36,828 nucleotides of DNA from Anaerolineae bacterium (GTDB taxonomy: Bacteria; Chloroflexota; Anaerolineae; Anaerolineales; Villigracilaceae): positions 1 to 36,828 of the forward strand of contig QEXW01000155.1 of assembly GCA_003130845.1 (NCBI GenBank), read 5' to 3'. Under the pieces are notes generated by a model, which saw nothing but the letters and a program-made list of their open reading frames with translations, was not told the origin of the DNA and searched no databases. Of this stretch, positions 3,404 through 6,740 are shown in pieces. A program made the position numbers and the translations under genes. How positions within the stretch are numbered: the first letter of the stretch is position 1; each line of letters opens with the position of its first letter.

Positions 3404-4450
3404 TCATCCGCGAACCAGTTTTGGCCCTTCGGGCGTATCTTGCACTGTCCAGCCAAGTGCCTGAATACGCCGACGATAATCATCGGCTCGAGACCAATCT
3501 TTGCGGGCGCGAGCAGCCTGACGAGCTTCGAGCAAAGCAGTCACTTCAGGGGGAGGTATTTCTTCGCCTGTGGTAGGATGTGGCGAAATGCTGCTTGCCA
3601 TCTCCCAGATGGCAGGAGAAATCCCCTGTGAAAGCGGATGGGGTATTTCAATCGAGCCAAATTCTTCAAATAAAATCGTAGAACCCGCCGGGTAAATGCG
3701 CGGATTACAGGTGCGTAGCAGCGAAACGGAACTTACCCCCATCACGAAACATTCGCGCTGACGAAAGTCAAAAACAATAGCGGTGTGTTCATCCAAACCA
3801 ACGACGGTGTGATTTTCTGGTAGGTAAGCACACCATACTTCAAAGCGTTCACGCCCGATAAAACAACGGCTGGTGTCTAACTCTTGGCCACCATCTGTAT
3901 TATTCCAGTGTGGAATGAACGAAAGCGCTAGCCCAAAATCATCAAACAGCCCCAACCCAGGAACGGTATGCACATCCTGTCCAACTTTGTAGATTTCGTA
4001 CACAGGCAAGCCGATTTGTCCTGCTGCAATGGTAGCGGCAGACGCAAAGACTAAGGCTGCGCCCATGCGGTGGCGGGCACGCAACAAATCCCAAGCCAAG
4101 CTATCCTTGAGTTGACGGATAGCATAGGTGGGAGAGCCAGGCCCCATGAAGACCAAATTAGCCTGTAAAAGGGGCGCGCAGATTTCAGGGTCATCAGGAC
4201 TAAAGGGGGTGCCGCGCTTACGGGCAGGGACAATCTGTATCTGCGACTTGTAGTTACTCAGGCGAGTTTGCAGAAAGTTGGCAACACGCGCTGCCACTTG
4301 CGCCGAGTTCAGCTCAAATCCGGCTGGGGTTTCGAGGATGGCAATCCGCAACGGTTGTTCTATCTGGCGCGCAAGATGTTCAAAAACACGACCTCCAGCC
4401 AACGAGGTTTCACCAGAACCAAGAAATGCGATGGGACCAAGCGAAGTCAT
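3404..4450 (-). CDS. S51-peptidase/cyanophycinase-like protein fused to a CysRS C-terminal-like domain
   Basis: This 348-residue protein has two parts. Residues 1 to about 290 look like the class I glutamine amidotransferase fold used by peptidase S51 and cyanophycinase: GPIAFLGSGE at the N-terminus, a glycine-rich FMGPGSPTY strand-loop (residues 101-109), a nucleophile-elbow-like FASAA with Ser137, and VVGLDEHTAIV (residues 216-226), which resembles the G-I-D-E-x-T-A segment of that family. Residues about 302-348 (ALLEARQAARARKDWSRAD, then an aromatic and DTPEGPKL) closely resemble the small C-terminal domain of cysteinyl-tRNA synthetase. No synthetase catalytic HIGH or KMSKS region is present, so this is not a CysRS. 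Peptidase activity and substrate are unproven. It lies 37 nt after the selenoprotein gene, probably in the same transcript. Confidence 0.7.
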   Translation of the reverse strand: MTSLGPIAFLGSGETSLAGGRVFEHLARQIEQPLRIAILETPAGFELNSAQVAARVANFLQTRLSNYKSQIQIVPARKRGTPFSPDDPEICAPLLQANLVFMGPGSPTYAIRQLKDSLAWDLLRARHRMGAALVFASAATIAAGQIGLPVYEIYKVGQDVHTVPGLGLFDDFGLALSFIPHWNNTDGGQELDTSRCFIGRERFEVWCAYLPENHTVVGLDEHTAIVFDFRQRECFVMGVSSVSLLRTCNPRIYPAGSTILFEEFGSIEIPHPLSQGISPAIWEMASSISPHPTTGEEIPPPEVTALLEARQAARARKDWSRADDYRRRIQALGWTVQDTPEGPKLVRG

Positions 4451-4487: not shown

Positions 4488-4946
4488 TCAACGAATATTC
4501 AATTCATCCAATAAAGATAAAATCAACTGGTTCTCTGGAATGTCTTTCATAGAATCACCATAATGCTGATAGCGAATTAGGCCAGATTTATCTACCAGGA
4601 GCAACGCCGGGATGCGTCCCAGCTTGAAAATGTTCCATTCCTGTCCATATAAATCAGCAACTTTGTGCCGGGGGTCAGGCAAACCAAGAAAGGGGATGTT
4701 GTTTTCGCTCCAGTAACGGCGATAGGCATTGGGACCATCGGGGCCAATGGCCAGGATTTCCGCGTCACGCGCGGTAAAAGCCGCGTAATCATCGCGTAAG
4801 CGCGCGAGATGAGCACGGCAATACGGTCACATGAAGCCGCGCAAGAAGACCAACACGAGGTGCTTCTTGCCGCGAAAATCGGAGAGCCGAATCAGATTGC
4901 TATGCACATCAGGCAGTTCAAAGTCGGGGGCGAGCATATCGGTCAT
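4488..4946 (-). CDS. AhpC/TSA-type redoxin, probable selenoprotein (in-frame TGA at 4827-4829 read as Sec40)
   Basis: From the ATG at 4946 the frame reads MTDMLAPDFELPDV, then a strand ending in FLRGFM, then TGA, then PYCRAHLARLRDDY. It continues without interruption to a TGA stop at 4488-4490, 152 residues in all if the inner TGA is decoded. The sequence on both sides is plainly one thioredoxin-fold AhpC/TSA protein: the APDFEL start, the active-site region after a hydrophobic strand, a cis-proline-like GRIPALLLVDKSG and a GxxRYQHYG strand. The TGA falls exactly on the first Cys of the family C-P-x-C motif, giving U-P-Y-C. A hairpin starting 7 nt after it resembles a bacterial SECIS. A simple nonsense mutation is the alternative. 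A weak GGATAG sequence precedes the ATG. The gene is 28 nt after the alpha/beta hydrolase. SelA, SelB, SelC and SelD are not in the window. Confidence 0.8.
4780..4819 (-). promoter_or_regulatory. SECIS-like hairpin downstream of the in-frame TGA
   Basis: Reading the minus strand, the TGA (4829-4827) is followed after 7 nt by GCCGTG (4819-4814), which pairs with CGCGGC (4785-4780) including one G-U pair. An asymmetric internal loop follows (C versus TTA). Then TCATC (4812-4808) pairs with GATGA (4793-4789), a two-base bulge intervenes, and GCG (4805-4803) pairs with CGC (4796-4794) below the six-base apical loop CGCTTA. The loop begins 24 nt after the TGA and has a G in its first two bases. 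Both points match what I know of the bacterial SECIS consensus (loop roughly 16-37 nt after UGA). The folding was done by eye. Confidence 0.6.
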
Positions 4947-4974: not shown

Positions 4975-5940
4975 TCAGCGTGACAAGACAAATTCACGCA
5001 CGGCTTGCATAAATTCGAGGGGTTTTTCTTCGTGGGGTAAGTGTCCGGCTTGTGGAATGACAACCAAGACAGCGCCGGAAATCTCAGAGGCCAGACGGAT
5101 GGAGTCTTGTGTCGGGACAATCCGGTCATCATCGCCGGTGATAACCAAAACAGGCAAGTTCAATTCCCCCAACCGCTCTGCCAGGCCAAGCGGACGGCTG
5201 GCAACGGTCAACTCCCACAAAGCGCGGTCCCAGTTGTTCGCACGCAGGGGTTTTCGGTAACCTTCTAACACTTCAGAAGTTACGAGTGAGGGGTCGTGAA
5301 AGGCACTACGAATAAAGTCGTTGCCTGTGGTAGCAATCTGACGGGCTAAAAGCGGCCCAAGATGGCGCATTTGGGGCGTGCCAAGCAACGGACGCACCCA
5401 AGCCGGAGAGCCGCCACCGGTGTAGATGGCCGCATCCACCAAAATCAAGCCGCTGACGCGCTGTGGATAGGTGAGCGCCGTATAGACAGAAACGGTGCCA
5501 CCCGCCGAGTTACCGACCAGCCAGGCTTTTTCGATGCCAAGCGTATCCATCAGGTCAATCACAAGGGCGGCCTGGTCTTCCGGGCTGTAGGGATTTTGGC
5601 CTTGCCATTCGCCAGGCATCGGGCGGCTGGTAAGACCAAACGCCGGACGGTCATAAGCAATCACTCGTCCCAATTCGCCAAAAGGCGCCAGCACTTCGCG
5701 CCAAGAAAAAGTGGAGGCGCCAAAGCCATGCAGCAGGATGAAAACCGGTTCGCCCGCGCCGCGCTCCTTATAATGAACTGTCAACTGACCGACCTGAACA
5801 AAGCGACTATCGGCATCAGCCAGTTCACGCTCGCTGACCGTATCGGTCAATGGGGGAACGGGGACAAGAAACGGCCCAAGCAACACCAACGCTATCAAAA
5901 GGACAAAAACGGTCAGGAGAATTTTTTGCCAAAGTTTCAT
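4975..5940 (-). CDS. Membrane-anchored alpha/beta hydrolase
   Basis: An alpha/beta-hydrolase-fold protein of 321 residues from the ATG at 5940. The catalytic features are the oxyanion loop LLHGFGAST, the nucleophile elbow VGNSAGG, the acid in VITGDDDRIV and the histidine in QAGHLPHEE. The N-terminus MKLWQKILLTVFVLLIALVL is a membrane anchor or uncleaved signal, so the enzyme probably faces the outside. An upstream ATG at 6015 would overlap the preceding gene and add an unlikely leader, so the anchor-adjacent ATG is preferred, although no Shine-Dalgarno is visible. The gene begins 20 nt after the neighbouring hydrolase. The substrate cannot be inferred; it could be an esterase, epoxide hydrolase or C-C hydrolase type. 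Confidence 0.85.
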   Translation of the reverse strand: MKLWQKILLTVFVLLIALVLLGPFLVPVPPLTDTVSERELADADSRFVQVGQLTVHYKERGAGEPVFILLHGFGASTFSWREVLAPFGELGRVIAYDRPAFGLTSRPMPGEWQGQNPYSPEDQAALVIDLMDTLGIEKAWLVGNSAGGTVSVYTALTYPQRVSGLILVDAAIYTGGGSPAWVRPLLGTPQMRHLGPLLARQIATTGNDFIRSAFHDPSLVTSEVLEGYRKPLRANNWDRALWELTVASRPLGLAERLGELNLPVLVITGDDDRIVPTQDSIRLASEISGAVLVVIPQAGHLPHEEKPLEFMQAVREFVLSR

Positions 5941-5960
5941 AGACAGTAACGGGTGAGAAG

Positions 5961-6740
5961 TTAAGGGGAAAGGGTTTGCAGGAAAGATGCTGTGACCTGT
6001 GCAGCCTGCTGCCATTGGGCTTCGGGTGAAATAGAAGCGAGGTTATCACCATTCTGCAAGCCATAATCGCCAAATTGGGCATGGTTGCCGCCCTCAATCG
6101 GGACAAAGCGGGCAGCTGAGGGCAAAAGTACGCGCGATTGCTGAATGCGGTCTGGCGAGGCTAGACCATCCAAGGTGCCATAAACAGAGAGAACAGGTAA
6201 TTCGGCAGCCTTAAAGCGCTCATCAGCAGGATAAGAAGCCCAAAAAACGACTGCCCGCACTTCGGGATGGTTTTGGGCAAACAGAGAAGCGGCCACGCCA
6301 CCCAAAGAATGACCACCCGCTGTCCACACATCAACACCTTCGGTTTGTGATAGCAAAGGAGCGCCGGCTTCGATGTCAAAAAAAGCCAAGTTCAGCCGCA
6401 CGCGCAACAAAAAGACAATGATGCCCTCTTCGGCAATTTTCCGCAGAGCAGGAGCGTACGCACGGTAATCTACCCGCCCGCCCGGATAAAAAACGAAGGC
6501 GGTGATGGTGTGCGGTTGACCGGTGCGATTTTCTTCGGCAATTTTGGCTTCACAAATGGCGGGATAAAATACGATATGGTCTTCACGTTGAAAGACATAC
6601 ACCCGTTCATCGGATTCCAGTGCTGCCAATGCTGTCGGCCCAGGACGGGCGGGAGTTTCGGCCCACATAACAAACCCACCCACCGAAAGCAGGAGAAGGA
6701 ACAGAAGAGAGAGGAGTGAAATTTTAAGAAACCGTTTCAT
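5961..6740 (-). CDS. Exported or membrane-anchored alpha/beta hydrolase (dienelactone-hydrolase-like family)
   Basis: 259 residues. Residues 1-27 form a basic-hydrophobic signal anchor (MKRFLKISLLSLLFLLLLSV). The nucleophile motif is AGGHSLGGVAAS, the acid lies in SVYGTLDGLA and the histidine in IEGGNHAQFGDY. That layout matches the compact alpha/beta hydrolase group that includes chlorophyllase-like and PF12695-type proteins, a family statement from memory. It starts 8 nt after the uracil-DNA glycosylase stop and is followed 20 nt later by another anchored hydrolase, so the two are probably cotranscribed. No Shine-Dalgarno is visible before the ATG, as for several genes of this train. The substrate is unknown. 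Confidence 0.8.
   Translation of the reverse strand: MKRFLKISLLSLLFLLLLSVGGFVMWAETPARPGPTALAALESDERVYVFQREDHIVFYPAICEAKIAEENRTGQPHTITAFVFYPGGRVDYRAYAPALRKIAEEGIIVFLLRVRLNLAFFDIEAGAPLLSQTEGVDVWTAGGHSLGGVAASLFAQNHPEVRAVVFWASYPADERFKAAELPVLSVYGTLDGLASPDRIQQSRVLLPSAARFVPIEGGNHAQFGDYGLQNGDNLASISPEAQWQQAAQVTASFLQTLSP

Follow-up and report, generated by a model that had tools for sequence, protein, structure and literature searches.

According to the available excerpt of the 2005 Sargasso Sea study, Prx-like selenoproteins with UXXC replacing TXXU were already then a known family (PMC1088965). Table 1 of a 2026 review describes them as Prx-like thiol:disulfide oxidoreductases of family PF00578, with UxxC or UxxU motifs and WP_010940744.1 as the reference sequence, and it lists separately a UxxC redoxin family, PF08534 (PMC13188914). 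Both the Prx-like and the UxxC redoxin families are also listed in the accessible part of a 2022 review (PMC9312934). In the portion of the deep-Sep main text available to us, the word redoxin is absent (PMC12013277), and our literature search on selenoprotein redoxins in Chloroflexi found no paper; the lineage-wide presence of a Sec redoxin may be unreported.

In the 36,828-nucleotide stretch of DNA analysed here (the window), a Sec-containing redoxin gene of 152 residues plus stop is located on the minus strand at positions 4488..4946. Its ORF opens with ATG ACC GAT ATG at position 4946 and closes with a TGA stop at 4490-4488. The sole interruption of the frame is an in-frame TGA at 4829-4827, codon 40, in the context LRGFM-U-PYCRAHL, which we read as selenocysteine based on the sequence and the homologous loci. 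This codon is the first position of a UxxC motif, whose second residue, Cys43 (4818..4820, minus strand), is invariant in our 30-row alignment. A crude estimate from the stop-triplet frequency gives a chance of approximately 3% that the 112 sense codons 3′ of the TGA would be open; this openness alone is weak evidence, and we do not rely on the estimate. It is homology across the TGA, and not openness, that decides that the frame is real. The PF00578 (AhpC-TSA) profile matches residues 6-126 with 88.7 bits (E = 3.8e-25), exceeding the curated cut-off of 26, so that the domain spans the TGA, and 29 relatives with identities of 40-82% align on both sides of it. The claim of the initial annotation that a single TGA breaks an otherwise continuous minus-strand frame is thereby upheld. 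It had also anticipated that an automatic caller would fragment the gene, and the plain ORF list indeed contains, in this frame, only a 64-aa piece starting at an internal TTG; the redoxin gene is thus truncated by standard ORF listing.

We consider it almost certain that the window frame is a genuine bacterial selenoprotein gene, with SelB-driven insertion of Sec as residue 40 of an oxidoreductase that has a peroxiredoxin fold. The frame, the homology, the retained UGA, the decoding machinery, the predicted hairpin and the post-UGA selection can all be read in the DNA itself. The enzyme agrees with the description of the UxxC Prx-like selenoproteins, a family on record since 2005 at the latest; the shared features are the AhpC/TSA domain, UxxC replacing TxxU, a UGA-coded Sec and a downstream bacterial SECIS element. 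The defining features of that family, i.e., a PF00578 match, a UGA as the opening codon of UxxC and a Cys-containing homologue (L054), were all found, and we see no difference in kind, the comparison being made with the family description and not with the sequence of WP_010940744.1. The label of new selenoprotein given in the initial annotation therefore holds for the gene copy but not for the family, which had been described in the excerpts cited above (PMC1088965, PMC13188914). The lineage of the window gene is Anaerolineales-like Chloroflexota, with the TGA kept in nearly all of the close homologues examined.

Three further described families share features with it. The redoxin family PF08534 of the 2026 review table (PMC13188914) resembles the window protein in its UxxC motif and also matches it, but the score is higher with PF00578 (3.8e-25 versus 2.9e-18). 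PrxU (NF040737) shares the peroxiredoxin fold and an active-site Sec; however, its motif is TxxU and not UxxC, and the window protein scores 22.4 bits, the cut-off being 270. The best NCBIfam match was the SelL-related redox protein (NF040769), with 65.7 bits (3.9e-18), but this match covers only residues 6-101 and does not reach the 120 bits of the curated cut-off.

The AlphaFold2 model, obtained from the 30-row alignment with C substituted for U, had a pLDDT of 93.6 and an active-site helix beginning at residue 41. The nearest solved structures were BCP and AhpE peroxiredoxins (Z of 22.6-23.8, with 147-151 residues aligned), while ResA appeared lower in the Foldseek list. When the sequence is aligned with 2ywn, Thr is opposite U40, and the cysteine of the TxxC motif is opposite C43. 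The peroxiredoxin fold, together with this alignment, indicates a peroxiredoxin body carrying a thioredoxin-type UxxC. Consequently, the proposal that U occupies the position of the first catalytic cysteine is correct with respect to a thioredoxin-type CxxC, but not with respect to true peroxiredoxins. The same structural data could also accommodate a selenoprotein that is mainly a peroxidase, with C43 as the peroxidatic and U40 as the resolving residue, rather than a U40-led thiol:disulfide oxidoreductase: the closest solved folds are peroxiredoxins, C43 falls on the TxxC cysteine, and R111 is nearly invariant in the 30-row alignment. Peroxiredoxins use a nearby Arg. Nevertheless, UxxC is a thioredoxin-type motif, a shared fold does not show function, and the family has been published as an oxidoreductase in the sources excerpted here (PMC1088965, PMC13188914); we therefore regard the peroxidase as a possible, although somewhat doubtful, reading. 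In our main reading, SelB carrying Sec-tRNA-Sec (UCA) would bind the mRNA hairpin just 3′ of the UGA, and selenocysteine would be inserted at residue 40. The U40 selenolate and the C43 thiol would then form a selenenylsulfide during disulfide or peroxide reduction, and a thioredoxin-like donor would regenerate U40/C43. In this scheme, we infer the Sec insertion itself, the substrate and the electron donor.

A scan of species genomes gave nine loci with identities of 50-81%, six in Anaerolineae-type Chloroflexota and three in records labelled Clostridiales or Tissierellia, with TGA in all nine. The cultured relative Ornatilinea apprima (L023) likewise carries the TGA form. In addition, some match at E 0.001 was present in 150 of 152 genomes from the family to which the window belongs. 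From the matches listed, 90 loci, own genome included, were taken: 30 as given and 60 hand-picked, almost all of them higher-scoring matches with one TGA. Some loci are present in both collections, and 5 of the 99 coding sequences are exact duplicates, leaving 94 distinct genes for the codon, SECIS-model and tree analyses. The codon aligned with residue 40 was TGA in 98 of the 99 homologous loci and TGC in one, L054, at 60% identity. Weaker matches (below approximately 90 bits and with up to approximately 41% identity), many of them without TGA, were left out except for L118 and L119, which have one; therefore, the 98/99 proportion describes close relatives and not all redoxins, and more distant redoxins without TGA exist among the family matches listed. 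Among the matches listed above 140 bits, each had one TGA, except for one match with none (G054:C52) and another with one TGA and one TAG (G074:C59). The distant redoxins L118 and L119 (genomes G045 and G048; 40% identity) contain U-M-Q-C, not U-P-Y-C, and we read them as an additional UxxC paralogue that carries a TGA of its own. The initial annotation had pointed out that relatives of the same species with TGC or TGT and a decaying downstream sequence would speak for a mutation or an error; the close relatives keep TGA, and their downstream sequence is conserved. Compared with eight relatives, the pN/pS of the part 3′ of the TGA was 0.15-0.43, ratios that are indicative only, since synonymous sites are mostly saturated. 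This part is under purifying selection and is evidently both translated and in use.

The window's genome comprises 3,767,540 bases in 159 contigs. Profile searches of this genome identified selB (TIGR00475, 357 bits, positions 2-580, cut-off 242.25), selA (531.8 bits, positions 1-454 of 455, over its cut-off) and a tRNA-Sec with 78.3 bits against a gathering score of 47; ARAGORN calls the same tRNA as tRNA-SeC with anticodon tca (UCA). Within the window itself, an Rfam search gave nothing at gathering scores, and ARAGORN found no tRNA. Only the start of selD was found (L028; model positions 1-60, below the cut-off), with a match at 3415-3597 of contig C30; it lies at the contig end, which would explain why the gene is seen only in part. 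An in-frame TGA is present in this selD start too (SSCAGUASK), and 3′ of it a hairpin with a GUU loop is predicted. The sel genes that the initial annotation had suggested looking for are thus in the genome, and the Sec-decoding trait (selA, selB, selC, selD) is present, with selD in part.

Among 201 sampled Chloroflexota genomes, each 80% complete or more, selB exceeded its curated cut-off in 156, which suggests that Sec decoding is common in the phylum. In the same sample, 23 genomes contained a match at E 1e-30 or better, with exactly one TGA in each match, and selB was over the cut-off in 23 of these 23 versus 156 of 201 overall (hypergeometric p = 0.002, uncorrected for kinship); the 133 other selB genomes are without a close copy. 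The phylum sample was used because co-occurrence within the window's own family carries little information, as nearly all of its genomes have selB (139 of 152 over the cut-off; selA, 141 of 152). The presence of a Sec system also bears on the possibility that UGA is read as some other amino acid, e.g., Trp or Cys, through a general code change or unassisted readthrough. The frame would indeed be open if UGA were sense; however, the redoxin gene's own stop is TGA and the in-frame TGA is confined to one active-site position, which makes this explanation very improbable, and we rejected it given that TGA terminates the same gene and that the genome has a Sec system.

A predicted bacterial SECIS stem-loop was localized at 4780..4819 of the minus strand, with a lower stem of 6 pairs, an upper stem of 8 pairs that includes one bulge. 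Its apical loop, CGCUUA (4797..4802, minus strand), lies 24 nt past the UGA and has G as its second base. In the consulted excerpt of the 2026 review, the bSECIS model comprises a loop of 3-9 nt, an upper stem of 4-16 bp, a spacing of 16-37 nt, a G within the first two loop positions and an MFE of -7.5 or below (PMC13188914). The window hairpin, at -11.4 kcal/mol, satisfies this model; a check for a bacterial SECIS had been suggested in the initial annotation. Among random synonymous recodings of the window gene, 44 of 300 also satisfy the model, 8 of them being as stable. A 50-nt segment beginning with the UGA folded only moderately better than shuffles (z = -1.40; 17 of 200 as stable), and the 54 nt after the UGA folded better, with a z of -2.71 and 2 of 200 shuffles reaching this stability; in alignment A2, which represents the window clade, z ranged from -1.34 to -5.61 over the 12 distinct rows. 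Over the whole set, 80 of the 94 distinct genes satisfied the bSECIS model versus 187 of 1040 random synonymous recodings, for which up to 15 members per motif group were used. By group, the model was passed by 50/53 genes versus 67/300 recodings in Q, 16/17 versus 29/300 in M, 11/17 versus 56/300 in H (the window's motif group) and 3/7 versus 35/140 in the group named other. The three Clostridia rows and L117 fail the strict model. L054, the sole Cys gene, is among the three failures of group Q, and in it the Q hairpin sequence is lost.

The initial annotation had read the in-frame UGA as selenocysteine from the letters alone, and this reading proved right, given the Sec machinery, the TGA in 98 of 99 loci, the post-TGA conservation and the bSECIS-compliant hairpin. 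The locus would instead be a pseudogene or an artefact if a nonsense mutation or a sequencing error had struck a gene that normally encodes Cys. A fresh mutation would show as a single stop, and the close homologue L054 does have TGC, but we rejected this explanation as virtually inconceivable, since it is refuted in practice by a TGA shared across many independent assemblies, selection persists 3′ of that TGA, and both the hairpin and the Sec machinery are present.

Drawn from a single bacterial family, the genes form a large, clean selenoprotein set. Among close homologues, Sec is very rarely swapped for Cys, and where one genome has several paralogues, the set permits a comparison of the position and loop of their SECIS elements. 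The Q hairpin consists of the stem GCGCGC, the loop AGUUG and the stem GCGCGC, and it occupies codons U+4 to U+9. In the M hairpin (stem GGCGC, loop AGUU, stem GCGCC), the loop is located 9 nt, i.e., three codons, further downstream than that of Q. The window clade is without the Q or M hairpin and has a two-part stem, with the loop CGCUUA, GCUU or GCCU in most rows. H- or Q-type copies coexist with M-type copies in some genomes, such as G053 (L052, L107) and G067 (L031, L102). H, Q, M and other are motif groups and not tree clades: in the tree, M and the Clostridia rows split from H and Q, with supports of 94/69 and 95/85 on the two sides, but the H rows L057, L069 and L094 fall on the M side, L043 beside Q, and L023 alone. 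The rows L024, L025 and L026, labelled Clostridiales or Tissierellia, are inside the M-type clade with a support of 98/91, a placement that suggests transfer between phyla or mislabelled bins.

Codon identity was measured among agreeing residues, comparing codons U+3 to U+13 with those elsewhere. It was 0.777 versus 0.471 in group Q (p = 2.8e-4) and 0.795 versus 0.470 in group M (p = 9e-6), while the difference in group H was not significant (0.583 versus 0.499, p = 0.057). The hairpin codons are nearly frozen at synonymous sites in two sister clades, Q and M. The alignments comprise 13 (A2, 12 distinct), 24 (A3), 52 (A5) and 30 (A4) of the loci. A3 compares M with its Clostridia relatives and shows compensatory changes between them: the stem is GGCGC/GCGCC in most rows and GAUGC/GCAUC or GAUGC/GCGUC in the Clostridia rows; 120 of its 120 cells are paired, none of 500 shuffles reach its covariation score, and its two-sided cell count also exceeds all 500. 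The number of A3 pairs with two-sided change is unremarkable, being reached by 58 of the 500 shuffles, and the five two-sided cells all come from the three Clostridia rows, where a single event may account for them. In A2, the two upper-stem registers tested gave no covariation, and the RNAalifold consensus contained one pair with two-sided change. The 6-bp stem of clade Q is 98.4% paired, and its changes are one-sided (GC-GU, CG-UG), so that this clade provides no compensatory evidence.

The distance of the SECIS element from the Sec codon seems to have changed. Whether the predicted SelB-binding hairpin has moved and been rebuilt within this redoxin family, with the AGUU(G) loop displaced by 9 nt in M and its Clostridia relatives and a different, longer hairpin lacking this loop in the window clade, is in our judgement evenly balanced; alternatively, similar hairpins may have arisen independently. 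If the hairpin did move, the residues after Sec would be shaped partly by the location of the RNA element.

The redoxin gene is flanked by a gene for a 348-aa protein (3404-4450) and by one for an alpha/beta hydrolase (4975-6015), all on the same strand and with gaps of less than 40 nt. At its C-terminus, the 348-aa protein matches CysS_C (PF23493, 1.4e-9), the anticodon-binding domain of cysteinyl-tRNA ligase; the remainder gave no match in Pfam. In a survey of the neighbours in 39 of the 99 loci, own locus included and with some genomes represented twice, the gene of the 348-aa protein was kept in 32 loci and the hydrolase gene in 22.
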